In this document: one piece after another, positions 29,746 through 63,180 of the stretch
Position numbering within the stretch: position 1 is the stretch's first letter
Layout: each line of letters opens with the position of its first letter
IMG/VR virus record: IMGVR_UViG_3300027728_001610
Coordinates: 30,809-94,808 of that record
DNA length: 64,000 nucleotides
DNA from: a virus
Strand: one strand, 5' to 3'
Translations under genes and position numbers: made by a program
Notes under the pieces: generated by a model
Told to the model about the DNA's origin: nothing
The model's input: only the letters and a program-made list of their open reading frames with translations
The model's database searches: none

Positions 29746-31599
29746 TTATTTTACTTCTTCAAAGTCAACATTTGTAACTTCTTCGTCTGAACTTGTTTCA
29801 TTTGTGGATTCATATAACTTTTGACTAATTGATTGAAATTCATTGTTAATTTCATCCATAAGTTTTTTTACATCATCAATATTTTTTTCATTATGAGCAT
29901 TTTTTAACTTATCAATTTTTGAAGTCAAATTTTGTTGTTCCTCTTCTGATATTTTATCTTTTAAATCATCCAAAGATTTTGAAACTTGAAAAATCATTGA
30001 GTCGGCAGAATTTAATGTGTCAACGTCTTCTTTTAGTTTTTTATCTGTTTCTGCGTTAATTTCAGCCTCTTGTTTCATTTTTTCAATTTCTTCTTTTGAT
30101 AAACCTGATGATGCTTCAATACGAATTGTTTGTTGCTTGTTTGTACCTTTATCAACCGCAGATACATTAATAATACCATTCGCATCAATATCAAAAGTAA
30201 CTTCAATTTGTGGAACACCTCTCATAGCAGGAGGCAATCCATCAAGATGGAATTTACCAATAGTTTTATTATCTTTTGCCATCGCTCTTTCTCCTTGAAC
30301 CACATGAATTTCTACGGTTGGTTGATTATCAACCGCCGTTGAAAATATTTCAGATTTTTTTGTTGGTATTGTTGTATTCGCATTAATTAGTTTAGTGAAT
30401 ACCCCACCCATAGTTTCAATACCTAATGAAAGTGGCGTAACGTCCAATAACAATACGTCTGTAACATCACCTCCTAAAACACCCCCTTGGATTGCAGCTC
30501 CTAAAGCAACAACCTCATCGGGGTTTACACCTTTTGATGGTTCTTTACCAAAGAATTTTTTAACAGCTTCTTGAATTGCTGGAATACGGGTTGACCCACC
30601 AACTAAAATAATTTCATCAATATCTGAAGGTTTTAGTCCCGCATTTTTAAGTGCCGACTCACAAGGTTTAATTGTTCTTTTAACTAAATCTTCAGTTAAT
30701 TGGTCAAACTTTGATTTTGTAATTTTAACAACCAAATGTTTTGGTCCTGTGGCATCTGCCGTTAAATATGGAAGATTAATTTCAGTTTGAGGTGAAGATG
30801 ATAATTCTACTTTAGCTCTTTCTGCAGACTCCTTTAATCTTTGAAGTGCCATTGGGTCTTTTGTAACATCAATTCCTGTATCGTTTTTAAATTCGCTTAC
30901 AAGAAAATCAATAATTACTTGGTCGAAGTCGTCACCACCTAAATGAGTATCACCATCTGTAGATAATACTTCAAAAACTCCATCCCCAAGTTCCAATATA
31001 GAAACATCGTGAGTTCCACCACCACAGTCAAAAACAACAATTTTCATATCTTTAGACATCTTGTCTAATCCGTATGCCAATGCTGCCGCTGTTGGTTCAT
31101 TGATAATTCTTTTAACATTTAGTCCCGCAATTTCACCAGCCTCTTTTGTTGCCTGTCTTTGAGCGTCATTAAAGTATGCAGGTACCGTAATTACAGCGTC
31201 TGTAACTTTTTCACCTAAGTAATCTTCAGCCGTTTGTTTCATTTTTTGTAAAATGGCTGCTGATATTTCTTGTGGGGAATAGGTTCTATTGTCAATTTCT
31301 ACTCTTGGGTTATTTTTTTCATTGACAATCTTATAAGGAACTTTAGAATGTTCACTTTTTGTATCATTAAACGCACTACCCATAAATCTTTTAATTGAGT
31401 AGATTGTTTTTTCTGGATTTGTAACCGCCTGACGTTTAGCAGGGTCTCCAATTTTTCTTTCACCATCTTTGACAAATCCAACAATAGATGGTGTTGTTCT
31501 TTTACCTTCGCTGTTTGTGATTACCACAGGTTCGAGACCCTCCATTACTGCAACGCATGAATTTGTAGTTCCCAAATCCACTCCAATAATTTTTCCCAT
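29746..31599 (-). CDS. dnaK: Hsp70 chaperone DnaK
   Basis: Complete 617-residue Hsp70. It has phosphate motif 1 [17 protein letters not shown] at the N-terminus, phosphate motif 2 [18 protein letters not shown], and the adenosine motif [20 protein letters not shown]. The linker is [19 protein letters not shown]. The substrate-binding domain is of normal bacterial form, ending NVDFEEVK. The C-terminal lid is slightly shorter than in E. coli. The usual LGGGTFD is CGGGTHD here, a mild divergence. No dnaJ or grpE lies nearby, so it would use host cochaperones. It is divergent from a ClpC-like gene. Probable acquisition from a bacterial host. Confidence 0.95.
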
Positions 31600-31683: not shown

Positions 31684-31775
31684 GTATATCAAGTTAGTAG
31701 TATGACAATATTACAAATAATTAAAAAATATTGATTTATATTTTTAGTTGGATTACTTTTAAAAAAAAACACAAT

Positions 31776-33812
31776 ATGATAGAATCTGCAGACAACAACG
31801 AAAAAGATAAAGCTAAAAAACCTGAAACAGGCTCTAAAACTCTCGTCCTTGATAATTTTTCAAGAGATTTGATTAAGGCGGCCGAAGAAGGTAAATTAGA
31901 CCCAATAATTGGTAGAGAGCAAGAAATAAATAGAATTGCCCAAATTCTATCAAGAAGAAAGAAAAATAACCCAATTATTATTGGTGAACCTGGTTGTGGA
32001 AAAACTGCAATTGTAGAAGGATTGGCTAAAAAAATATTTGAGGGGGATTGTCCTCAAAACCTTGTTGGTAAAAGAATTGTTTCTTTAGATTTAACTTCAG
32101 TAGTTGCAGGAACAAAATACAGAGGTCAGTTTGAGGAAAGAATGAAAGTGATAATTGAAGAATTGTACGCAAATCCTGATATTATTATCTTTATTGATGA
32201 AATCCACACTATGATTGGAGCAGGTAACGCTTCAGGTTCTATGGATGCATCAAACATATTTAAACCCGCTCTTTCAAGAGGTGAAATACAATGCATTGGT
32301 GCAACGACCTTAGAAGAATATAGAAAAAATATTGAAAAAGATGGGGCATTAGAAAGAAGATTTCAAAAAGTAGTTGTTGACCCATCAACAAAAGAAGAAA
32401 CATTAGAAATATTAAAACAATCAAAAGACCGATATGAAAAACATCATAAAGTAAAATATAGTGAAGACATTTTAAAACTTTGTGTTGAGTTGGCAGATAG
32501 ATACATCACAGACAGAGAATTTCCCGATAAGGCTTTTGATATTATTGATGAGGTTGGAGCAAGAAGTCAGGTTGAAATAAAACTTCCTGAAGTTATTGAA
32601 AAACTAAAAAAAGAAGCTCAAGAAATAAAATCTTTGAAAATTGAAGTAATCAATAAACAAAAATATGAAGAAGCCGCAGATTTAAGAGATAGGGAAAGAA
32701 GAGTTTTAGGTGAATTACAAAAAGAAAAAGAAAATTTTGAAAAAAATAGAGACCTATATAGAAAAGAAGTGACGGAAGATATTGTTTATGATGTTACATC
32801 TTTGATGACAAAAATTCCAATTAATAAAATAACAACAGATGAATCAATTCAATTGGCATCTTTAAATGAGGTTTTAAATTCAAAAGTAATTGGTCAAAAT
32901 GAGGCTGTTTCAAAAATTGCAAGAGCAATTCAAAGAAACAAGGTTGGATTAAACGACCCTAAAAAACCAATATTTAGTGGACTTCTAATTGGAAATTCAG
33001 GTGTTGGTAAAACTGAATTGGCAAAACAATTAGCAAAACATATGTTTAATAGCGAAGATGCACTTATTAGATTAGATATGAGTGAATTTTCAGATAAGAT
33101 TGCAACCTCAAAATTAACAGGAACATCACCAGGTTATGTGGGGTATGAGGACGGTTCACCATTTTTAAATAAAATTAAAAACAAACCTTACTCTGTTATT
33201 TTGTTAGACGAAATTGAAAAGGCACATCCTGAAATTTTTAACGTATTTTTACAAATGTTAGATGAAGGGTTTTTAACGGATGGTCACGGAAGAAAAATTA
33301 ACTTCAAAAATTGTATAATTCTAATGACATCTAATGTTGGGACTAGAGTTGTTCAACAGTTCGGTACAGGTGTTGGTTTTTCAACATCACATAAAGAAGA
33401 AACAAAAGATGAAGAAATCAAATCTTTATTGGAAAAAGAATTATTCAAAAAGTTTGCTCCTGAGTTTATTAACAGATTTGATGACATCGTATATTTTAAA
33501 GACCTTAACGATGATGATTTAATGAAAATCCTTAATTTGGAACTTGAAAAATTATACAGTAGAGTTTTGAATTTAGAATATAATGTTCAAGTTGAAGATT
33601 CTTTGAAAAATCATTTAATTAAAGTGGGAACCGATACAAGGTTTGGAGCTCGTATTTTAAAACGGACCGTTCAAAAATGGATTGACGATGCAATTACGGA
33701 AAAAATTCTTTCAGATAACCCAGAAAAAAATTCAACATTTGTGTTATCTTTTGATGAAAAAAATATTAAAACTGAAGTTAAAATTAAAAAACCAACAAAA
33801 AGAAAAAAATAA
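31776..33812 (+). CDS. ClpC/ClpA-like AAA+ unfoldase lacking the N-domain
   Basis: Two AAA+ modules. D1 begins LIKAAEEGKLDPIIGREQEI, with Walker A GEPGCGKTA and Walker B IIIFIDEIHTMIGAG. D2 has Walker A IGNSGVGKTE and Walker B VILLDEIEKAHPEIF. The short middle region contains NKQKYEEAADLRDRERRVLG, a UVR-type motif as in ClpC. GTGVGFSTS offers a VGF loop of the kind that docks to ClpP. The N-terminal Clp repeats are absent: D1 starts about 25 residues after the chosen ATG (31776; an upstream in-frame ATG at 31731 adds an AT-rich stub). It would unfold substrates for host ClpP, with adaptor binding altered by the missing N-domain. Confidence 0.88.
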   Translation: MIESADNNEKDKAKKPETGSKTLVLDNFSRDLIKAAEEGKLDPIIGREQEINRIAQILSRRKKNNPIIIGEPGCGKTAIVEGLAKKIFEGDCPQNLVGKRIVSLDLTSVVAGTKYRGQFEERMKVIIEELYANPDIIIFIDEIHTMIGAGNASGSMDASNIFKPALSRGEIQCIGATTLEEYRKNIEKDGALERRFQKVVVDPSTKEETLEILKQSKDRYEKHHKVKYSEDILKLCVELADRYITDREFPDKAFDIIDEVGARSQVEIKLPEVIEKLKKEAQEIKSLKIEVINKQKYEEAADLRDRERRVLGELQKEKENFEKNRDLYRKEVTEDIVYDVTSLMTKIPINKITTDESIQLASLNEVLNSKVIGQNEAVSKIARAIQRNKVGLNDPKKPIFSGLLIGNSGVGKTELAKQLAKHMFNSEDALIRLDMSEFSDKIATSKLTGTSPGYVGYEDGSPFLNKIKNKPYSVILLDEIEKAHPEIFNVFLQMLDEGFLTDGHGRKINFKNCIILMTSNVGTRVVQQFGTGVGFSTSHKEETKDEEIKSLLEKELFKKFAPEFINRFDDIVYFKDLNDDDLMKILNLELEKLYSRVLNLEYNVQVEDSLKNHLIKVGTDTRFGARILKRTVQKWIDDAITEKILSDNPEKNSTFVLSFDEKNIKTEVKIKKPTKRKK

Positions 33813-36088: not shown

Positions 36089-36492
36089 GGGCCCGACTTG
36101 GATTTGACAGGCGTTGGTTGAATATAAGGAGCATGCCGGGACTGAATTAATCTCGTTAAAAACTGATTCACACTATATACGGCAACGTACTAGATAACCT
36201 TTCAGTGGTTGGTTTAATTGCAACTGAGCAAGTTACTGTAGCTTAATATAAGCACGGAAACGGGAGCCGGTTCACATACGCTTAGCAACAGAAGTGATAA
36301 AAGTGGATTACCATTAAACTATAAATTGAATGGTCCATTGGTTGTTAATTTACGATGGTGAAGAACAAATTAACCTTGTTTTTGGTCAAGACAAAATCAA
36401 ATATTTTGGGGTATTAGAAAATACCAACCTAAGCATGTAGTTGTCTTTTAGACAAGACGAGCTGGACGAGGTTTCGATTACCTCCGGGTCCA
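36089..36492 (+). ncRNA. ssrA: tmRNA (transfer-messenger RNA)
   Basis: The 5' end GGGCCCGACTTGGATTTGAC and the 3' end pair as a 7-bp acceptor stem: GGGCCCG (36089-36095) with CGGGTCC (36485-36491), one G-U. The 3' part has the conserved CTAAGCATGTAG and a T arm GAGG-TTTCGATTA-CCTC. A is the discriminator; CCA is not encoded. GCATGCCGGGA...TCTCG and TGAAT...ATTCA build pseudoknot 1. About 8 nt later GGC (36181) is the best resume codon and opens a frame closing at TAA 36244-36246. The 21-residue tag begins GNVLDNLSVV and ends IATEQVTVA, longer than usual and without the standard LAA end. SmpB must come from the host. Confidence 0.88.
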
Positions 36493-36510
36493 CACTAGAC
36501 ATTTTGTACT

Positions 36511-42930: not shown

Positions 42931-43054
42931 AATTAACTAATTCTATTGGTACACAGATTATTCCCTGTTCTGTAAAAATGTGAATAAATATATCATCCAC
43001 AGGTTCCCATTTTTCAAAAATATAAGTAATTCCATTAACTGTGACGTTATTCAT
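42920..43054 (-). CDS. Small hypothetical protein downstream of the fibre gene (44 aa)
   Basis: The ATG (43054-43052) overlaps the stop of the collagen-like fibre gene (ATGAATAA), so translation is probably coupled. The product begins MNNVTVNGITYIFEKWEPVD and ends VPIELVNFNE. It overlaps the convergent glycosyltransferase gene by 11 nt. No family recognised; a fibre chaperone or small tail component would fit the position. Confidence 0.5.
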   Translation of the reverse strand: MNNVTVNGITYIFEKWEPVDDIFIHIFTEQGIICVPIELVNFNE

Positions 43055-45206
43055 ATATTTGGACAATTACTCTTTTATGACCTAAATTGTCGGGGGTTGT
43101 AGTTGAGTTTTGAACCGCGAATAATAAATAATTATCAATCGCAGGATTAAATGAAACTAAAGTTCTTGTCCCTGATGTTAAATCAGTACTTATCCCGTTT
43201 GATGGATTATATACATATAAGTTAGTTTCATCAAAAAAGAAATTCCTCTCAAATCGTTGTATATAAACCGATGAGTTCATTGCTCCGGCGGTTCCCATTA
43301 ATGTCGCGCCCGATAAACTATTAGTTGTATTTATATAAATCCTACCCGTTGATGTGGTAGAACCCGAAGTTTTAGTTAGTAAATTACGAATATAAATCGA
43401 GTTATTAGTTGAAATGGTGTTTGCAGGTATCAATACGGTTGCACTAATTTGATTGGAAGTACCAATTAGATTTCTACCCACAACACTTGATAAAGTCCTT
43501 GGGTCAGAATTTATATTTCCTGAACCAAGTAAAGTGACATTATTCAATGTCTTTATGTTAGTTCCACTTAACAATGTATCCTGTTTGTCATCTAATGCAT
43601 CTTGTAAGTCAGTCTGTGAACTAATCGTTCCTGTTATTGACCCCCATGTAGTCCCACTTGACGATGTTCCACTAGTACCATCAGTGCCCGATGTTCCCGA
43701 TGAACTCATTAATTGCCAATAAAGTGGTCCATCTCCATCATCTGGATTGATGTCATAATTTGTCTGTATACATATGTAAGAACTACCATTAAAGAATATA
43801 ACATCGTTTACTTGATATGTTGTGGTGTTGTTCCAATTTCCTGTCCAATTAAAAGATGTTCCATCATCACCAGCTTGAGACATTAAAGCCCAACTACTAT
43901 TAAGTGGAGGTGGTGGAGTTCCTAAATTACCATTTGTTAATGAAATGTAAGAACTACCATCATACTCAACAACATCATTAATGTTGTAAGTGACTGCAAA
44001 GTTCCATGAACCATTCCAATTAAAAGACAAACCACTAGTTCCATCTGTTCCTGACGTTCCGTCAATTCCATTAATACCTGAAGTTCCATCTGTTCCTGAC
44101 GTTCCCGATTGTGACATTAACCCCCAAGCAGTTGGGCTTCCAGGTGGTAGATTACCAATATTACCATTGATTAATGAAATGTAGGAACTTCCATTAAACT
44201 CAACCGAATCGTTTACATTATAAGAAATTGTAAAATTCCAAGACCCGTTCCAAAAAATTGAGATTCCATCTGTACCAGACGTTCCGTCAATTCCACTAGT
44301 CCCATCTGTTCCTGACGTTCCGTCAATTCCATTAATACCTGAAGTTCCATCTGTTCCATTAACACCTGAAGTTCCATCTGTTCCTGACGTTCCGTCAATA
44401 CCATTAACACCTGACGTTCCGTCAATTCCATTAATACCGCTAGTTCCGCTTGAACCTGAAGTTCCATCGGTGCCAGAAGTTCCACTACTACCACTTGTCC
44501 CGTTTGTTCCCGATGAACCTGATGTTCCATCTGTACCACTAGACCCATTGGTTCCATTAGTTCCGCTTGAACCGCTAGTTCCATTGGTTCCTGAAGAGCC
44601 GCTAGTTCCGTTAGTTCCCGATGACCCCGATGTTCCATCTGTACCTGAACTACCACTTGAACCCGAACTTCCTGACGTACCATTAGTTCCCGATGAGCCG
44701 TTTGTACCACTACTACCACTCGAACCTGAACTACCATTGGTTCCATTTGTACCACTACTACCTGATGTTCCATCTGCACCACCACTTCCTGATGTTCCGT
44801 CCGTACCAGAAGACCCTGATGTACCTGAACTTCCATTAGCCCCATTTGTACCGCTAGTTCCGTCCGTACCGGATGAACCATTAGTCCCATTTAACCCACT
44901 ACTTCCCGAGGTTCCACTACTTCCATTTGTACCATTAGTACCTGAACTTCCACTAGTTCCAGATGAACCACTTGAACCATTAGTCCCGTTTATACCACTA
45001 GACCCATTTGTTCCTGAAGTACCATTTGTACCGCTTGTGCCGTTAGTGCCTGATGTACCACTACCACCTCCACCACCTGAAGTTAATATTGTATTTCCAT
45101 TTTCATCCACACCCAAAAGATTCACGGATGAACCACTTGATAGGCCTAAAAACTGTATTGTTCGACCACGGTTTACAATTAAATCTATGTATTTTTTCTT
45201 CAACAT
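43047..45206 (-). CDS. Collagen-like tail fibre protein (719 aa)
   Basis: Residues 1-~45 form an N-terminal attachment region. They are followed by ~260 residues of Gly-X-Y triplets (GTSGTNGSSG-type), a collagen-like shaft. Three related ~60-residue modules follow (pattern WNGSWNFTISYNVNDSVEFN, GSSYISL, W-x-LMS), each resembling small carbohydrate-binding modules with W..Y..ND.V.F/Y.GSSY. The C-terminal ~190 residues form a receptor-binding-type tip. It is the best candidate receptor-binding fibre in the window. Its shaft is unusually Ser/Thr/Asn-rich, hence a possible glycosylation target. Confidence 0.75.
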   Translation of the reverse strand: MLKKKYIDLIVNRGRTIQFLGLSSGSSVNLLGVDENGNTILTSGGGGGSGTSGTNGTSGTNGTSGTNGSSGINGTNGSSGSSGTSGSSGTNGTNGSSGTSGSSGLNGTNGSSGTDGTSGTNGANGSSGTSGSSGTDGTSGSGGADGTSGSSGTNGTNGSSGSSGSSGTNGSSGTNGTSGSSGSSGSSGTDGTSGSSGTNGTSGSSGTNGTSGSSGTNGTNGSSGTDGTSGSSGTNGTSGSSGTSGTDGTSGSSGTSGINGIDGTSGVNGIDGTSGTDGTSGVNGTDGTSGINGIDGTSGTDGTSGIDGTSGTDGISIFWNGSWNFTISYNVNDSVEFNGSSYISLINGNIGNLPPGSPTAWGLMSQSGTSGTDGTSGINGIDGTSGTDGTSGLSFNWNGSWNFAVTYNINDVVEYDGSSYISLTNGNLGTPPPPLNSSWALMSQAGDDGTSFNWTGNWNNTTTYQVNDVIFFNGSSYICIQTNYDINPDDGDGPLYWQLMSSSGTSGTDGTSGTSSSGTTWGSITGTISSQTDLQDALDDKQDTLLSGTNIKTLNNVTLLGSGNINSDPRTLSSVVGRNLIGTSNQISATVLIPANTISTNNSIYIRNLLTKTSGSTTSTGRIYINTTNSLSGATLMGTAGAMNSSVYIQRFERNFFFDETNLYVYNPSNGISTDLTSGTRTLVSFNPAIDNYLLFAVQNSTTTPDNLGHKRVIVQIYE
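44260..45075. repeat. Collagen-like Gly-X-Y coding repeat
   Basis: Imperfect 9/18-bp units encode GTSGSSGTNG-like triplets on the minus strand over ~800 bp. Long open frames on the plus strand (PLVPLVP-type) are shadows of this repeat. Confidence 0.85.
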
Positions 45207-45716: not shown

Positions 45717-48248
45717 TTATAAAAATGTATTCACGATATCCAAAAAGGAATCTTGAACCATTAAACTATCGTATCCTGATTTAATTAATTTTCTTTTTTC
45801 TAATTGCAATTCTAAAAGAAATGTTTTATTTCCAACATCATCTCTTTCTATTAAAGACTCAACGACAAAATCAAATCTATTATTTATTAATTCTTTTTCA
45901 ACTAACATTTTAGATTTCATTTCTTTTTGTTCAGTTATGATATTCTTTATTTTGTCGTTCAATTTATAAATATTTGCGTTTTCTTGAATTTGTAAGTTTA
46001 ACTCTAAAAATTCTAAATTTGGTGACACATTTGTTAATTGTTTAATATAATCTTTTGTTTTTCTTGATAATTTTTTAAAAATTCTAGCATGACAACTTTT
46101 TATTTTTTCTTTTTCTTTTTTCAACATGTTTTTGTCTATGTCGTCAATTGATGTGGTTTTTCTATAAAGAGAAACATAAGTTTGGTAATACTTTTCAACA
46201 ATGTCTTCACATTCTTTTTCTGTTAGTGATGTAGTAGTAGTTGGCGATGTTGAAGTTGTTGGTGATGTAGTGGTTGGTGATGTTGTAGTTGTTGGTGATG
46301 TAGATGTAGTATTTTGTAAGTCTAAAATTGTTTTTTTATATTCATCTTCTGATATTTCAGTAAAAGTTTTTCCATATTCCTCCATATCGGTAACACCTAA
46401 ACGACCCTTACCATTAAAAACATATTTTTTATCTTTTGTTGAAAACATATAAAGGGAATACACTGGTGGAAATTCTACTTTTAAAACATAATTTTCATTT
46501 TTATAATATTGGTCATCTTGTAATTCATCATATCTAACCGTTTTACCTTGAGGGTATGTTGTGGATGTGTTTTCCGGAGTTGAAATTATGTTTTTATATT
46601 CATCTTCAGTAATTTTAGTGAAAAACTCACCAATTTCTTTTTTAATATTTTTTTGGCGATGAATATAATATTTGATTCCTTGTGGTCCGACTTCACCTAA
46701 ATATTTTTTTTTCTTTATTGAATAAAGATAACACAATAATCCAAAAGCTTCTATTATTTTAATTAAATAGTTATCGTTTTTATAAAATTTTGGACCCTCC
46801 AAATTATCATAATCAACAACATCACCAATCGACTCATTAATTAATTTTTTGTTATAAACATTACCTTCTTTTTGTAAAAAGGACAAGAAATCTTTTTTGG
46901 ACATTATTATTGTAAATTCTAAATTATCTTCATTTTTTAATCTAAATTCATACTTTGGTGATTTAGAAAAAATAAATTTTGTATCAACAGTTAATATGTA
47001 TTCACCAACCTCAACGTTTTCAAACTCAAAAAAACCATTTTCATTGGCCTTAGTTTCATAAACAATGCTTTTAATATTTTTGTTTTGAAGTTTTACTGTT
47101 GGTAATATTTTTTTAATATTTTTTTTAGCCCTTTCTATTTTATCCTTATACTCACTTTTTATTTCTTGTGTTCTATCCGTATTTTCAGGATTTTTAAGTT
47201 CCAAATCCATTTTAGTTTTTAATGTAGGAACTCTACTTGCAATATATGATAAAGATTGAAGTGGTTTACCTTCATATGTATTTATTAAACCAGTTTTAAC
47301 TATTGAATCTAAACCTTTATCTTCAACGCCCAAAACGGAACCCACAACACTTCCTGATTTAAACATACCTTTTAATCTTGTCCCTGTTGTTAGATTTGAA
47401 TAAACATCTGTCACTCTTGGTCTTTCATTATTATATTTAACCAAATCGTCAATTGTTTTATCTATTGTTTTAACTTTGTATGTTGATGTTAAATCATCTA
47501 CTTTAACTGTTTCGAATTCACCTTTATAAACTGACCCGTTTTGGAATGTCATAGTACCTTCACCTTCTATTTTACCTTCATAAAATTCACCTTCATATTT
47601 ATCACCATTATCAAAAACTATTTTTCCATTACCTTCAGGTAAACCATCACTAAAATTACCTGTATATGTGAATTGGTCATCGTGGAAATTTGGTCTTAGT
47701 GGTGATATGTAAATTTCATCTGCGACTTCAGAAGAAATATTAGATAAAGTTCCTTTACCTTCGAATTTTCCGTTTTTAAAATTTCCAATATAATATCCTT
47801 CCTCACTTTTTAATTCACCCTCACCATTTTGACAATCACCATTCAAACAATCAAGAGAGTTTACTGATGTTGTGGTTGTTGTTAGTTCATCAGGTAAAAA
47901 ATCTTTCACCGATACTAAACCGGCTACTAATTTATCATAATCTTCTTTAGTAATTTCTTTGAATTTTGTTCCGTACCGATGGAAATCTTTTTTAAAAAAA
48001 GTATAGTATTTTACAGTATTGTTATTTGTTATAAATTTCTTATTGCTCAAGTCGTATAGATATAATTTATATGCAGTATCATCAACCTCAGTTGAAATAA
48101 TATTCACCACATATCCTTTACTGACATAATACTTACCGGCTTCCAAATTATCAAAATTAACCATATCACCATATGATTCATTAAGCAATTTATGAAGTTT
48201 AAGAATATTATTTCTTTCTTGTTCTGATATTATGAACTTTCTACTCAT
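45717..48248 (-). CDS. Leader-bearing protein with MORN repeats (843 aa)
   Basis: The N-terminus FIISEQERNNILKLHKLLNE then S is the ISESEKQRIL-type leader with an L-N-E site after residue ~24. A ~70-residue module (GDMVNFDNLEAGKYYVSKGY...) occurs three times, at the N-terminus and twice after residue ~480. Residues ~140-260 contain MORN repeats (GYYIGNFKNGKFEGKGTL, YTGNFSDGLPEGNGKI, YEGEFYEGKIEGEGTM). A TSPTTTT linker and a charged helical C-terminus follow. MORN repeats often bind lipids or proteins, so this may be an internal protein that acts at the host membrane after ejection. That role is inference. Confidence 0.6.
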   Translation of the reverse strand: MSRKFIISEQERNNILKLHKLLNESYGDMVNFDNLEAGKYYVSKGYVVNIISTEVDDTAYKLYLYDLSNKKFITNNNTVKYYTFFKKDFHRYGTKFKEITKEDYDKLVAGLVSVKDFLPDELTTTTTSVNSLDCLNGDCQNGEGELKSEEGYYIGNFKNGKFEGKGTLSNISSEVADEIYISPLRPNFHDDQFTYTGNFSDGLPEGNGKIVFDNGDKYEGEFYEGKIEGEGTMTFQNGSVYKGEFETVKVDDLTSTYKVKTIDKTIDDLVKYNNERPRVTDVYSNLTTGTRLKGMFKSGSVVGSVLGVEDKGLDSIVKTGLINTYEGKPLQSLSYIASRVPTLKTKMDLELKNPENTDRTQEIKSEYKDKIERAKKNIKKILPTVKLQNKNIKSIVYETKANENGFFEFENVEVGEYILTVDTKFIFSKSPKYEFRLKNEDNLEFTIIMSKKDFLSFLQKEGNVYNKKLINESIGDVVDYDNLEGPKFYKNDNYLIKIIEAFGLLCYLYSIKKKKYLGEVGPQGIKYYIHRQKNIKKEIGEFFTKITEDEYKNIISTPENTSTTYPQGKTVRYDELQDDQYYKNENYVLKVEFPPVYSLYMFSTKDKKYVFNGKGRLGVTDMEEYGKTFTEISEDEYKKTILDLQNTTSTSPTTTTSPTTTSPTTSTSPTTTTSLTEKECEDIVEKYYQTYVSLYRKTTSIDDIDKNMLKKEKEKIKSCHARIFKKLSRKTKDYIKQLTNVSPNLEFLELNLQIQENANIYKLNDKIKNIITEQKEMKSKMLVEKELINNRFDFVVESLIERDDVGNKTFLLELQLEKRKLIKSGYDSLMVQDSFLDIVNTFL

Positions 48249-54757: not shown

Positions 54758-55225
54758 TTATTTATTTATATAAAAATTTATAACCCGTCTAACGGATTCT
54801 TCAATATTATCTCTTTTTACTTGCAAATCTTCATCATCATCCACCAAATTGTCAAACTCATCTTCCTCCAATTCAAAAACATCTACAGGACCTCTTGATT
54901 TGAATCTATATGCGGGTTTTTCATCATTGATATTATAAAATGTCATTGATTGACCAGGACCTCCTGATTCAAAATCATATGCTGGTGTAATCTCATCATA
55001 ATTAAGAGGTTTTGCTGTGATTTCATTTACTCTATTATTGGTATATTCTTTTACATTACCACTATTATCTACTGTAACTCCGACTTTATCTCTTGCGGCA
55101 TCATAAACAGTAAGTGGTGTCATATTAGATGGAACATTTTGTGTTGCGTACCCATTATAAACTTGCGCATGTTGTTTTAAAATTGACTGTCTTTCTTCAT
55201 CAGTCATTGTTGAATACCCTCTCAT
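54758..55225 (-). CDS. Leader-like protein, type TDEERQSILKQH (155 aa)
   Basis: The N-terminus MRGYSTMTDEERQSILKQHA resembles the ISESEKQRILEMH leaders but has no clear (L/I)-x-E within the next twenty residues. The first ATG at 55225 overlaps the upstream gene; the second Met (TMTDEER) is an alternative start. The body is acidic with two similar segments (AYDFESGGPGQSMTFYNIND and AYRFKSRGPVDVFELEEDE). No family recognised. Confidence 0.5.
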   Translation of the reverse strand: MRGYSTMTDEERQSILKQHAQVYNGYATQNVPSNMTPLTVYDAARDKVGVTVDNSGNVKEYTNNRVNEITAKPLNYDEITPAYDFESGGPGQSMTFYNINDEKPAYRFKSRGPVDVFELEEDEFDNLVDDDEDLQVKRDNIEESVRRVINFYINK

Positions 55226-55893
55226 ATTGTTTCATCATTTGTATATTTATCTGCACTTAAAATCCAAATTTGTTTTGCAGTTCTTGCCAATCGGACCATA
55301 GTTTTTTGTATGTCTTCAAGACTATATTCCATTTTTTTATTTTCAAAATATTTCATTGATGCTCTTACAAACAAATTATAAATTTGCGAAGATTTATCAA
55401 TTAGTTTATTTATAAGTATCTGCTTTTTTTCATTTGGTTTGTTATGATAACTTTGTAGTTTAAAAAAATCTCTAATATAGTCAGGACCCATAAGTAAAAA
55501 CTTACCTCCTTCCATTGCCATATTATGGGAACCTATTCTTCTTTCTAACTCCAAAAACTTAAAAACATCTTCAAGTTCACCTTTAGTAAATGCTGCAAAA
55601 AAATCTCCTTTTGAAACTAATTCATCTATGTTTCTAAAATTAATTTCCTCTAAATTTTGTTGATTTAATTCATCATCCATAATCCAAGTATCCAAATCAG
55701 GCATCATAGGTAATCTACTTATAACTTTACCGTCGTCGTCATACCATTCCATTTTGTATCTGAAACCAGGGTCTTCAGGTTTTTCTTTTGGCATGTTTTC
55801 AATACCAAGAACTTTACCCTTTAAAAGAGCTAAATTTTCTCCATACATTTCAATTAAAAAAATTCTATCTCCTGTTTTAAGAGTTGGTTCCAT
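55222..55893 (-). CDS. Hypothetical protein (223 aa)
   Basis: No family recognised. The first ~80 residues form a small beta domain (MEPTLKTGDRIFLIEMYGEN), the rest is helical. No leader and no membrane segments. First gene of the operon that runs to 45.7 kb on the minus strand, with the late-type motif 3 nt before its ATG. Confidence 0.5.
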   Translation of the reverse strand: MEPTLKTGDRIFLIEMYGENLALLKGKVLGIENMPKEKPEDPGFRYKMEWYDDDGKVISRLPMMPDLDTWIMDDELNQQNLEEINFRNIDELVSKGDFFAAFTKGELEDVFKFLELERRIGSHNMAMEGGKFLLMGPDYIRDFFKLQSYHNKPNEKKQILINKLIDKSSQIYNLFVRASMKYFENKKMEYSLEDIQKTMVRLARTAKQIWILSADKYTNDETI

Positions 55894-55921: not shown

Positions 55922-58375
55922 CTACCTAATAATGGTTAAAGACCCACTTAATTCTTTTTTCTCGTCTGTTTTTGGTGAACCAAATCTCATAACCCAAGTG
56001 TAAATACCATCTTGACATTTAACATTATTGTAAGTACCATCCCATTTTGCGCTTGGGTCGTGACTTTCCCATACGGTTTCGCCCCATCTATTGTAGATAT
56101 AAAAATCAAACTTATATATATTAACCCCTGAAGTTATGATTGGTTGGAAGTATTGATTATATTGGTCACCATCAGGTGTGAATGTGTTTGGAATATAAAA
56201 TATTTCATTTGGACAAAGTTCCAAAGTCACAACAAATGTTTTAGGATTTGATACACAACCATTATCCCATCTAACAACTTGAAATTGAAATACTCCATCT
56301 TGGTTCCAAGTTATGTTCAAATTTTGTATTTGTGTTGTGTCTCCAAAATGATACCATTCATTATATCCTCCACTTGCAGAATTGGCTCCAAAGACATCTG
56401 TAATTGTATCACCTTCACAAATTTGATGGTATTCTGTACTTTCACCAACAATACCATTTGTGACAGGAATTAAATTTGGTCTTGGGTAAACTTGAACATA
56501 TATTGAAGTGTCGAACCAACAACCTGATTGGTTATATTGATATGAAACACTATCTATTCCAATAAATCCGTTATTTGGACAATATTGATTACCCCACACA
56601 TTCATTCCAACAAACATTCCATTTGGTGGGGTTGCACTTAAGTTAATACAATTATCGTATTCACAAAATGGACCAACAGGTGTGATTACAGGAAGAATAT
56701 TTAAATCATAAATGGTAAATGTTTGAGGTTGACTTTGACACCCAATTTGATTTTGAGCAAAAACCGTTAATGTGTTGTTGTATAATCCACCATTAACTCC
56801 AGTCACATCTAAATTAATTTGGTTTGTACCTTGACCTTGAAAACTTCCAATTCCTGAAGACCAAGTATAAGTTAAATTAGGAAATACACTTGATACCAAG
56901 TATTGATTATTTATTGAATTAAAACAAACAGTATCTGAACCCGTTATTGGATTGATTGTAACTTGTGGTGGGTCTACTAAAACAACGGTATTTGTTGCAG
57001 GACAATTATTTGCATCAATTACCGTAACACTATAATTTCCACTACACAAATTGGTTGCGGTTTGTGTTAATTGGTTATTAGACCAAACAAAAGAATAAGG
57101 GGCAATTCCATCATTAGGGTTTACAGTCGCTAAACCATCACAATAACCAAAGCAAGTTGGGTTTGTTCCAATAACTGAAGGTGCTTGTAGTGGTAATGGG
57201 TCCACTAAAGTTGCAGAACCATTATATGTACATCCATTGGCGTCATTTAAAGTAAATGTATATGTCCCATCACATAAATTAGATAGTGTTAAATTATTCC
57301 CTAAACCATTCCAATTTATAACAAATGGACCAACACCCCCAACAGGAGTTACAATAATAGAACCATTACAACTATCGGTACATAATGGGTTATTTACCGT
57401 TACGTTTGGATTTGGTAGGTTTGGCGTTGGGGTTACTAAAATAGTATCAGGTCCTAAATTACCGGCACCTACATTACACGAAGACCAACCTGCATTACAA
57501 GTGGGATAAATTGGTGTACAAGTATAATATGCCCCTTGTGATGGTGGAGTTACTGTTATTTGTAATCCTGTACCAATTGGATTTGGGTTACCAACTTGAA
57601 ACCAAGTATATGTTGGTGAAACGGGTGGTCCTGATGGTGTATAACGATGAGCATTATTTGTTGTTGTCCAAACCGTTGAGTTTCTACCTGCAACCGTTAC
57701 AGCTTGTGTTCCTGCTGCATTGTGTATTCCTTGTACCGCAGTTCCACCTGCCCATTGTTGACAATTTGGTTTATTTGCAATGTGGTTTTCAATTATATTT
57801 GTTGATTCATATAGTATAATATGAAAAGTTCCTTGTAAATTGGTACAAGAAAACATAGGAACACCAATCCAACTAACTACTAACTTACGACAAGGTGCCG
57901 TTCCTTGAACTTGATATCTTATTTGACCCCCAATACCTGGATGCCAATCTTGCCAAGGACCCATTATACAATTTTTTGGAACCGCAGCATTTGGTGTTGG
58001 AATTGTTAAAGATGCAAAAGTGACAGGTTGTGCTCCAGCACCTAATGATACCCACCCATTAGAACCAATTCTGAATTGAGTATAGGTTTGACCATAATAA
58101 CAAAAAGTAAAACCAATATTAAATATGCCCGATTGTGAGTCATCCCCCAACGCAACTAAAGCCCCTGAATTAGTTTGAGTAACGTAAGGAATGTTTGTTA
58201 CATTATAATTTGTTGTTTGATTTGGTTGTGAACCTGGTCCACACTGTGATAAATCGGCAGTTAATGTTGTTTGAGAAACCCCGCAAGGTAAAGTCATATC
58301 AGGACCAATAAAAGGACAATATTGGGAATATGTGATAAAACTGATTAGTGTAAATATTAATGGTAATAACTTCAT
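55922..58375 (-). CDS. T9SS-type surface protein with SprB repeats and type B sorting domain
   Basis: 817 residues. MKLLPLIFTLISFITYSQYC is a signal peptide, likely cut after YSQ. Residues ~30-240 form a beta domain typical of secreted Bacteroidetes proteins (FRIGSNGWVSLGAG, VVSWIGVPMFSC). Residues ~325-470 hold two SprB-like repeats (NPLCTDSCNGSIIVTPVGGV and NPTCFGYCDGLATVNPNDGI). The last ~85 residues are the gliding-motility/T9SS type B C-terminal domain: FYIPNTFTPDGDQYNQYFQP, FDFYIYNRWGETVWES, and W-D-G-T-Y. It would be exported by the host type IX system to the cell surface. Late-type motif lies 12 nt upstream. Confidence 0.88.
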   Translation of the reverse strand: MKLLPLIFTLISFITYSQYCPFIGPDMTLPCGVSQTTLTADLSQCGPGSQPNQTTNYNVTNIPYVTQTNSGALVALGDDSQSGIFNIGFTFCYYGQTYTQFRIGSNGWVSLGAGAQPVTFASLTIPTPNAAVPKNCIMGPWQDWHPGIGGQIRYQVQGTAPCRKLVVSWIGVPMFSCTNLQGTFHIILYESTNIIENHIANKPNCQQWAGGTAVQGIHNAAGTQAVTVAGRNSTVWTTTNNAHRYTPSGPPVSPTYTWFQVGNPNPIGTGLQITVTPPSQGAYYTCTPIYPTCNAGWSSCNVGAGNLGPDTILVTPTPNLPNPNVTVNNPLCTDSCNGSIIVTPVGGVGPFVINWNGLGNNLTLSNLCDGTYTFTLNDANGCTYNGSATLVDPLPLQAPSVIGTNPTCFGYCDGLATVNPNDGIAPYSFVWSNNQLTQTATNLCSGNYSVTVIDANNCPATNTVVLVDPPQVTINPITGSDTVCFNSINNQYLVSSVFPNLTYTWSSGIGSFQGQGTNQINLDVTGVNGGLYNNTLTVFAQNQIGCQSQPQTFTIYDLNILPVITPVGPFCEYDNCINLSATPPNGMFVGMNVWGNQYCPNNGFIGIDSVSYQYNQSGCWFDTSIYVQVYPRPNLIPVTNGIVGESTEYHQICEGDTITDVFGANSASGGYNEWYHFGDTTQIQNLNITWNQDGVFQFQVVRWDNGCVSNPKTFVVTLELCPNEIFYIPNTFTPDGDQYNQYFQPIITSGVNIYKFDFYIYNRWGETVWESHDPSAKWDGTYNNVKCQDGIYTWVMRFGSPKTDEKKELSGSLTIIR

Positions 58376-58466
58376 TGGTTTTTTATTTATAAATAGATTT
58401 TATGTCTGATTAAAAAATAGACAATTTTCTTTTAGTGTCAATTTTTTATTATATCGTTTATTTGTA

Positions 58467-58478: not shown

Positions 58479-59147
58479 ATGACGAAGTTAAAATTAATTG
58501 GTAGTCTTGTTGACACAATAAAAGAACAGGGTAGGTACTCTGGTTTTTATGTTGCTGGTCCAAAAGAAAAACAACCCATAGGTTATGACTATGAGGATAA
58601 AAAAATTTTAACCGTTTCTGATGTTGAAGATTGGGGGGAGGTTAGTGATGAAGAAATTGAAGTATATAAAGAATTAGAAACTTTTCCAGCAAAAGGTAAA
58701 TGTAAGTCTTGGTCTCACTTATCTAAAAACGGAAAAAGTAATGGAGAATTAGAAGGTTCAGATTTACAAAATTTAAAACACCACACAAGTAAAAAATTAT
58801 CACCAGCGGCTGCGGTTGATTTTGATAAAATGGAAGATAAATTTAAAAGTGAAAAAGGTCGTGTTTTTAAAAATTTTACAGATGCATATAGGACTTATGA
58901 CAATCAATGGGAAATATTTGATTGGAATAAATGTATCAAAACTGGTAAAAATATTAAAAAAGAAACCGAAACTGTTGTTGCCGCATTTCCAGGAACTTCT
59001 AACCACGGTTGGGGTGAGGCTGTTGATATCGGTGATTCTGAAGCTCAAACGTGGATAAAGGCAAATGGAAAACAATACGGTTGGTGTTGGGGTGAGGCTC
59101 CAACTGAACCTTGGCATTTTACATACAACTTAAGATATTGTTCTTAA
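58479..59147 (+). CDS. M15 (VanY/DacY-like) peptidoglycan endopeptidase, probable endolysin
   Basis: 222 residues. The M15 zinc peptidase signature is complete. FTDAYRTYDNQ is the first conserved segment. FPGTSNHGWGEAVDIG carries the S-x-H-x-x-G-x-A-x-D zinc ligands, and EPWHFTY supplies the final W-H. The N-terminal ~80 residues may bind the wall. There is no signal peptide, so release would need a holin; a two-helix membrane protein gene follows directly. It is expected to cut peptide cross-links in host peptidoglycan. Confidence 0.82.
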   Translation: MTKLKLIGSLVDTIKEQGRYSGFYVAGPKEKQPIGYDYEDKKILTVSDVEDWGEVSDEEIEVYKELETFPAKGKCKSWSHLSKNGKSNGELEGSDLQNLKHHTSKKLSPAAAVDFDKMEDKFKSEKGRVFKNFTDAYRTYDNQWEIFDWNKCIKTGKNIKKETETVVAAFPGTSNHGWGEAVDIGDSEAQTWIKANGKQYGWCWGEAPTEPWHFTYNLRYCS

Positions 59148-61905: not shown

Positions 61906-63180
61906 ATGTTGTTAGAAAAACTAAAAAATATACCAAAAAGTAGTGGTTGTTACCTTTTTAAAGATAAAAAGGGGCAAATTATCTATGTAGGTAAAGCAAA
62001 ACACCTACCAAATAGGGTGAAATCATACTTTTCTAACAAAAATCACTCAAGTAAGACAAAATTGTTAGTTGAAAACATTGTTGATGTTGATTTTGTGACC
62101 ACTTTGGATGAAAACTCCGCTATTGTTTTAGAAAATGACCTAATTAAATCACACAAACCAAAATACAACATTAAACTTAAAGATGATAGGTCGAAAAAAT
62201 GGTATTTGACACTATCTAATGGTGATTTTCCTCGTGTTGAGGTTAAAAATGATACAAACTTGGATGTGACTCCTCTTTTTGAGGTGTCAAGTAGTAATCT
62301 TGCTTACGAAATTTATGAATTAATCCACGATATTGTGGACTTAAGGTCTTGTTCTTACGAACTAACAAAAGAAAATATTGAAAATGGTAAATTTACCACT
62401 TGTTTAGAGTACCATATGGGTCGGTGTTCAGCCCCTTGTGTGTCAAATATCAATAAGTTTGTATATAAATCATTGATTGATGACCTAAAAGAACTACTTA
62501 CATTCAATTTTGTTTCATATAGAAAAAAATTAACTCGTCAGATGAACACCTTTAGTAAAAATATGGAGTTTGAAAAAGCAAATACCATTAAACACAAGTT
62601 GGAAGCACTTGATAAGTATGAAAAGTGTGTTGAATCCACAAGAATTGGTGGTTATTTGGTAATTGCTGATGAGTTCAAGACTACTTTTAATTTACAAAAC
62701 AACCCGATTGACATAGAAATGTATGATAACTCCCATACTAATGGGGATTGTCAGGTATCTGCACTTGTTAGATACACAAATGGTAAGAAAAACACATCAG
62801 AATACCGTAAGTTCAACATCAAAACCGTTGATGGTCCTGATGATTACGCATCATTTGATGAGGTTTTACGTAGAAGGTTTACAAGATTACTTAAAGAACG
62901 TAAAAAACTACCTGATATGGTTATTATTGATGGTGGTAAAGGTCAATTGGGAATTGCAAAGAAAGTGTTTGACGAACTTTCACTATCTAATCGTATAGAT
63001 TTACTATCTATATCTAAAAATGCTCAACACAGGTCAGATACGTTACATTTTATTGACGGTAGAAGTATAAAATTTGAAAATAAAAAGTTTTTTAACTTAC
63101 TTGCAACAATTCAGGATGAGGTTCACCGATTTGTTATTACATTTCACAGAAAAAAACGTACTAAATCAGTTATTGGATAA
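61906..63180 (+). CDS. uvrC: UvrC-like excision nuclease without HhH domain
   Basis: 424 residues versus ~600 for bacterial UvrC. The N-terminal GIY-YIG nuclease reads SSGCYLFKDKKGQIIYVGKA (GIY is GCY here) with a later LKDDRSKKWYLTL. A Cys-containing region follows (CLEYHMGRCSAPCVS), then a UVR-like helix (KNMEFEKANTIKHKLEALDK) for UvrB contact. The C-terminal RNase H-like nuclease has IEMYDNSHTNG, MVIIDGGKGQLG and DEVHRFVITFHRKKRTKS. It stops right there, so the tandem helix-hairpin-helix DNA-binding domain is absent. It needs host UvrA/UvrB or acts alone on branched DNA. Confidence 0.88.
   Translation: MLLEKLKNIPKSSGCYLFKDKKGQIIYVGKAKHLPNRVKSYFSNKNHSSKTKLLVENIVDVDFVTTLDENSAIVLENDLIKSHKPKYNIKLKDDRSKKWYLTLSNGDFPRVEVKNDTNLDVTPLFEVSSSNLAYEIYELIHDIVDLRSCSYELTKENIENGKFTTCLEYHMGRCSAPCVSNINKFVYKSLIDDLKELLTFNFVSYRKKLTRQMNTFSKNMEFEKANTIKHKLEALDKYEKCVESTRIGGYLVIADEFKTTFNLQNNPIDIEMYDNSHTNGDCQVSALVRYTNGKKNTSEYRKFNIKTVDGPDDYASFDEVLRRRFTRLLKERKKLPDMVIIDGGKGQLGIAKKVFDELSLSNRIDLLSISKNAQHRSDTLHFIDGRSIKFENKKFFNLLATIQDEVHRFVITFHRKKRTKSVIG

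Follow-up and report, generated by a model that had tools for sequence, protein, structure and literature searches.

An apparent orphan type B cargo of the type IX secretion system among the late genes of large T4-like phages

Why a phage should encode a protein bearing the signals of a secretion system that belongs to its host is the question raised by a gene located in the window analysed here, a 64-kb stretch of DNA forming part of a linear virus record of 94.8 kb. The phage proteins known to act at the exterior of infected Gram-negative cells are mostly small lipoproteins or membrane proteins. The product of this minus-strand open reading frame, which starts at an ATG and comprises 817 aa, had been described in an initial annotation as a surface protein exported by the type IX secretion system (T9SS).

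The cargo gene and its product

The features of the locus, in window coordinates, are the following.

55922..58375, minus strand: T9SS type B cargo gene, 817 aa (open reading frame with Pfam and NCBIfam profile matches)
58325..58375, minus strand: signal peptide (aa 1-17), followed by an invariant Gln18 that forms the Bacteroidetes Q-rule site (alignment of relatives; PMC5837995)
57422..58324, minus strand: conserved N-terminal domain (aa 18-318) with 11 invariant Cys (alignment, predicted structure)
56966..57415, minus strand: SprB-repeat part of the stalk (about aa 321-470; PF13573 in two stretches, the best at aa 404-435)
56216..56962, minus strand: PKD/Ig-like part of the stalk (aa 472-720), kin to GhpA modules (PF19408 at aa 472-549, profile and fold matches)
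55931..56194, minus strand: C-terminal sorting domain (CTD) of T9SS type B (aa 728-815; PF13585 and TIGR04131)
58388..58395, minus strand: late-promoter-like motif TATTTATA, 21 nt upstream of the ATG
58479..59147, plus strand: VanY-type peptidase, probable endolysin, the divergent upstream neighbour (PF02557)
55222..55893, minus strand: downstream neighbour, 223 aa, beside the cargo gene at 18 distinct loci

The proposed architecture, in which a signal peptide and SprB repeats accompany a complete type B CTD, was borne out, as the curated cut-offs were exceeded and a Q site was found. In Pfam, CHU_C (PF13585, a type IX secretion signal) scored 53.7 bits against a cut-off of 27, with aa 728-815 covering positions 3-86 of the 86 in the profile, while the SprB repeat (PF13573) reached 44.1 bits (cut-off 28) over its two stretches and PKD_6 (PF19408) 33.8 bits (cut-off 25). 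The CTD likewise passed TIGR04131, the NCBIfam model of the T9SS type B sorting domain and the test on which the initial annotation had staked its reading (38.6 bits, cut-off 35; profile positions 3-84 of 85), and both CTD models match at the extreme C terminus, within aa 728-816 of 817. Signal peptides and Q-rule sites were judged directly from the sequence; here the peptide MKLLPLIFTLISFITYS is followed by the cleavage site and then by Q, in accordance with the Bacteroidetes rule of a Gln after signal peptide cleavage (PMC5837995, PMC10653852). The profiles support the reading as a T9SS type B cargo, and the suggested dependence on a T9SS-positive Bacteroidota host is supported as well.

The structure model of the 817-aa protein consists of an N-terminal helix followed almost entirely by beta modules (mean pLDDT 80), the placement of which is unreliable given a pTM of 0.37. 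The N-terminal domain is modelled as beta-rich (pLDDT 82). An enzyme or lectin identity was rejected for this domain, given that it has no match in Pfam or in a PDB sequence search and no significant match in a PDB fold search; its best BFVD fold match is A0A6J5P7T5, an uncharacterised protein of an uncultured phage (TMq 0.48). The stalk, by comparison, is related to GhpA, the grappling hook protein of Aureispira, with a profile E-value of 2.8e-93 and the best fold matches; GhpA was found by profile only, a phmmer search of the PDB with the single protein giving no match. This kinship, together with a conserved N-terminal domain where the tip would be expected, might point to an adhesin by which infected cells stick to other cells or to particles, so that progeny reach new hosts after lysis. 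Nevertheless, a stalk of about 400 aa is short, its number of repeats is variable, and the likeness to GhpA lies in the repeat modules and not in a ligand-binding part; we consider a role as adhesin unlikely, though worth retaining as a candidate.

Phage origin and genomic setting

The window also encodes a T4-like Gp23 capsid protein, a Gp20 portal protein (Portal_T4) and a gp17-type (T4-type) terminase, as well as a tmRNA and a tRNA-Gly, and it is therefore likely that the linear 94.8-kb record is a piece of some larger T4-like genome. The tmRNA (36089-36493) carries the tag peptide ATEQVTVA. Other genes observed in the window encode a full DnaK that passes the equivalog cut-off (29746-31599), an adjoining ClpB/ClpA-like AAA+ protein (31731-33812) and a UvrC-like phage protein of 424 aa with GIY-YIG, UVR and RNase H domains (61906-63180).

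When the whole protein was used as query against IMG/VR, 136 relatives were found on contigs of up to 292 kb, and the N-terminal domain as query recovered at least 199 stretches of viral contigs, the largest of 436 kb; moreover, a full-length relative (48% identity over 98%) is present in the 634-kb megaphage record LR745206. CHU_C was detected in all 17 phage records checked, in a single copy in 15 IMG/VR contigs and in four and three copies in two megaphages. The notion that a T9SS cargo is very unusual in a phage was not supported by these numbers, nor by the precedent of Cryophage, for which a phage-encoded T9SS type A cargo was reported (Bellas et al. 2020; PMC7468147). The phylogeny against bacterial homologues that the initial annotation had called for was obtained as a quick tree with midpoint root; in this tree of 30 phage and 78 bacterial N-terminal domains, the phage sequences form one clade (SH-aLRT 98) nested in the diversity of the chromosomal Bacteroidia homologues. 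The presence of homologues in Bacteroidia chromosomes might raise the suspicion of an assembly chimera or of recent host contamination, but the phage clade is separate, the viral-contig stretches are numerous, the CTD is single-copy in contigs of up to 292 kb and the phage neighbours are conserved. In fact, at 18 distinct loci a homologue of 55222-55893 lies on the same strand about 16 nt downstream of the cargo gene, and other neighbours from the window recur in 9-18 loci; this synteny rules out a chimera with a bacterial contig, and the probability left to either artefact is negligible.

The late-gene setting suggested earlier was likewise upheld. The portal and terminase genes, like the cargo gene, are preceded by TATTTATA, a motif that occurs 26 times in the window against 13.5 expected, and the TATTTAT core is found within 100 nt upstream of 27 of the 59 open reading frames of the window, compared with about 5% of random stretches. 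At this locus, the cargo gene adjoins the VanY-type peptidase gene and is the first of a series of genes that extends to a collagen-like tail fibre. The interval 43047-45206 encodes a tail-fibre-like protein in which long collagen-like repeats occur together with two CBM5/12 modules, and the interval 45717-48248 a late-region protein with MORN repeats.

A second setting was found in 44 of 100 distinct loci, in which the cargo gene lies about 75 nt behind a T4-like gp19 tail tube gene (phrog_4542, E 1.7e-21), in the order gp18 sheath, tube, cargo, baseplate-hub-like and tape-measure genes, all on one strand. This position in the tail operon, and a weak Hoc-like PHROG match (E 0.0034), would be expected of a virion protein decorating tail or head with Ig-like modules. 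However, the gene is missing from most related tail-tube loci and is not conserved with the tail module: 80 such loci were fetched, 71 of them with readable downstream sequence, and the cargo gene was present in 5 of the 71 and in a split version in one more (L233), whereas in the remaining judged loci the baseplate-hub gene or other genes come next. In addition, a terminator separates the cargo gene from the tube gene, and a signal peptide with Q-rule site in 61 of 61 relatives and a CTD kept under selection are hard to reconcile with a virion component, which we regard as very unlikely. The split version (L233:3864-5630) consists of three tandem open reading frames, all of which have a signal peptide and Q site of their own, whereas the last alone has the CTD.

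The terminator behind the tube gene is a hairpin (-15.1 kcal/mol, z -3.4) common to filled and empty sites. Comparison of an empty site (L228) with a filled one (L080) places the cargo gene exactly between this terminator and the TATTTATA of the next gene. Presence or absence at one site between flanking transcription signals is the layout of an accessory cassette (moron), and this is what the relatives in the tail-tube slot display. A scan of the window's own locus with the 223-aa neighbour recovered a single relative and no empty site, which leaves the tail-tube slot as the basis of the argument from empty sites. In 24 contig records carrying portal or tail-tube genes (37-159 kb) no cargo gene was detected; being fragments, these records support patchiness weakly. 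Since many related phage contigs yielded no copy of the gene, the benefit that it brings would be conditional.

Conservation of export signals and apparent exchange of modules

The proteins of this family measure about 650-820 aa, and their modules were compared in an alignment of 61 distinct full-length phage sequences. The median pairwise identity is highest in the N-terminal domain (0.75, aa 18-318) and falls to 0.51 in the CTD, 0.43 in the stalk and 0.38 in the signal peptide. The median omega is about 0.18 for the N-terminal domain, 0.31 for the CTD and 0.39 for the stalk; all three are under purifying selection. The second SprB repeat is absent from about 80% of the relatives. In spite of the divergence of the signal peptide itself, Q follows it immediately in 61 of 61 proteins, and in 59 of the 61 peptides the hydrophobic core scores above 2 (Kyte-Doolittle). 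The 11 cysteines of the N-terminal domain are invariant across the 61 phage relatives, as expected for a location outside the cytoplasm. Five CTD motifs, A-E, are needed for secretion (PMC12618676), and the hallmarks NRWG, W-x-G, G-x-Y and the terminal G...R/K were found in 61 of 61 proteins and FTP-D/N-G in 58 of 61, by means of regular expressions that are proxies for, and not the exact published columns of, these motifs. The persistence of the CTD motifs and of the Q residue indicates that export is under selection, and on the strength of these signals the protein is very probably secreted or displayed through the host T9SS.

Stalk and CTD identities are correlated (Spearman 0.65) and loosely tied to that of the N-terminal domain (0.30 for the stalk, 0.21 for the CTD). 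In one pair of relatives (L061 and L077) the N-terminal domains are 92% identical (dS 0.5) and the CTDs just 39%, which we read as an exchange of the stalk-CTD half between phages. Signals of the other T9SS type occur in related phages too, as the type A sorting domain PF18962 was found in 11 of 24 phage records, 9 of them above the cut-off. In one relative, a second large T9SS-type protein of 1347 aa (L030:2556-6599), resembling bacterial T9SS proteins, is encoded upstream of the cargo gene.

Shuttles, putative function and known systems

Type B cargo needs PorP/SprF-like shuttles for secretion and anchoring (PMC12618676, PMC9143113). A profile search for PorP_SprF had no match in the 24 phage records, which are fragments, and matched in 11 of 11 bacterial genomes holding the homologue, which served as positive control; the phage protein is thus an orphan cargo as far as these records extend. 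Likewise, none of the flanks fetched around the bacterial homologues contained a PorP gene (for 65 homologues the right flank exceeded 1.2 kb), and a profile of this type proved able to recover held-out PorP proteins. In bacteria, too, the family thus appears to be orphan, and this would account for the phage managing without a shuttle gene. Chromosomal Bacteroidia members, L085 and L089 among them, share the N-terminal domain with the phage protein at 63-66% identity, carry a type B CTD and have no nearby PorP/SprF gene; L085 and L089 are also nearly of the same length, and L085, of 817 aa, can be aligned to the phage protein along its whole length at 41%. In contrast to the phage gene, the nearest Bacteroidia homologues have ordinary chromosomal or housekeeping neighbours in metagenome-assembled genomes (MAGs). 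The contig of L089 is labelled Candidatus Competibacteraceae (Pseudomonadota) but encodes a T9SS protein of Bacteroidota type, and its genome, which has 8 PorP/SprF genes, is probably a mislabelled or mixed MAG.

Based on the motif and the gene position, we propose that expression of the gene begins together with that of the late genes. The export signals under selection suggest that the product would cross the inner membrane through Sec and be cut by signal peptidase I, the new N-terminal Gln probably being cyclised, and that the type B CTD would then guide it through the host T9SS translocon. Given the absence of a phage-encoded shuttle and the published biology, a PorP/SprF-like shuttle of the host may anchor the protein outside, where the variable SprB/PKD stalk would hold the conserved N-terminal domain outward. 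An infected-cell surface altered in this way might no longer adsorb further phages productively, whether siblings or rivals, both because receptors would be covered and because the protein would occupy the secretion and shuttle sites through which adhesins of the host, SprB for example, are displayed. Receptors of Flavobacterium phages have been proposed to be parts of the gliding machinery (PMC7345892), which makes adsorption interference a plausible purpose, and we put it forward tentatively, with somewhat more doubt than belief. However, the tip is strongly conserved in phages of many different samples, which could mean that it has a conserved partner and that this partner is not a phage receptor. 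That the gene is, overall, a late accessory gene of large T4-like Bacteroidota phages encoding an orphan type B cargo that alters the cell surface is a reading for which the case is close to balanced.

An alternative that partly overlaps adsorption interference is that the CTD is the active part and fills the PorP/SprF shuttles of the host, so that SprB-type adhesins or receptors are not displayed and gliding stops. Besides the lack of a shuttle gene in the phage records, it is favored by the finding that similar CTDs can use common shuttles (PMC12618676) and by two megaphages that each encode one mini-protein in which a signal peptide is joined to a bare type B CTD, with no passenger.

L388:3509-3859 (LR756502): mini-protein of 116 aa, signal peptide and type B CTD
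L389:3338-3718 (LR745206): mini-protein of about 107 aa from an inner Met, signal peptide and type B CTD

These mini-proteins are possible shuttle competitors. In the cargo family of the window, however, conservation is highest in the N-terminal domain rather than in the CTD, so for this protein the passenger seems to matter more, and competition for shuttles is rather improbable as its main role. A broader scheme, to which we give similarly little credence, is a general strategy by which a lineage of large Bacteroidota phages would take over host type IX secretion with orphan type B cargo, and in which a fixed effector tip is combined with exchangeable stalk-CTD halves matched to the PorP/SprF proteins of the host, while some megaphage CTD decoys jam the shuttles and stop both gliding and receptor display. 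Returning to adsorption interference, the family would offer a new candidate route to superinfection exclusion, or else to adhesion, two of the possible roles named in the initial annotation beside that of a decoy receptor. As a conserved, modular set of surface proteins apparently routed via a secretion machine specific to Bacteroidota, it links these large phages to T9SS-positive hosts, and its CTD variants may serve as natural probes of the recognition between PorP/SprF shuttles and their signals in T9SS biology.

Among known systems, Cryophage is alike in having phage proteins with T9SS sorting domains, for which superinfection exclusion or competition was proposed (PMC7468147). It differs in that type A CTDs are found on an endoglucanase, a GH39 protein and a PA14 protein, encoded by variable genes of one phage, whereas the present proteins are one conserved type B family with a fixed N-terminal domain, of single origin in the sample and present on hundreds of contigs. 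The combination of signal peptide and type B CTD is shared with SprB and the orphan type B substrates of F. johnsoniae, and the SprB repeats with SprB; the orphan members, like the phage cargo, have no linked shuttle gene (PMC12618676, PMC9143113), use one common shuttle and have the gliding machinery as their destination (PMC12618676). The phage protein is far shorter than SprB, is borne by a phage, has a different N-terminal domain and is accompanied by no shuttle gene found in the phage; an orthology with this gliding adhesin was rejected, as SprB is very large with sprF adjacent, in contrast to 817 aa, two SprB repeats and no sprF. GhpA (PDB 9FLP and others) has a chain of related SprB/PKD-type beta modules in its stalk, but is a bacterial protein of 5898 aa, whereas the phage stalk is short and the N-terminal domain has no significant GhpA match. 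In the literature searched, which covered few subscription journals and preprints, no phage type B cargo was found, the type A cargo of Cryophage aside. As far as this search extends, the tail-operon accessory status, the apparent dependence on a host shuttle and the passenger-less CTD proteins are new, as is the type B phage family itself, with its single origin, wide spread, conserved tip and exchangeable stalk-CTD half.
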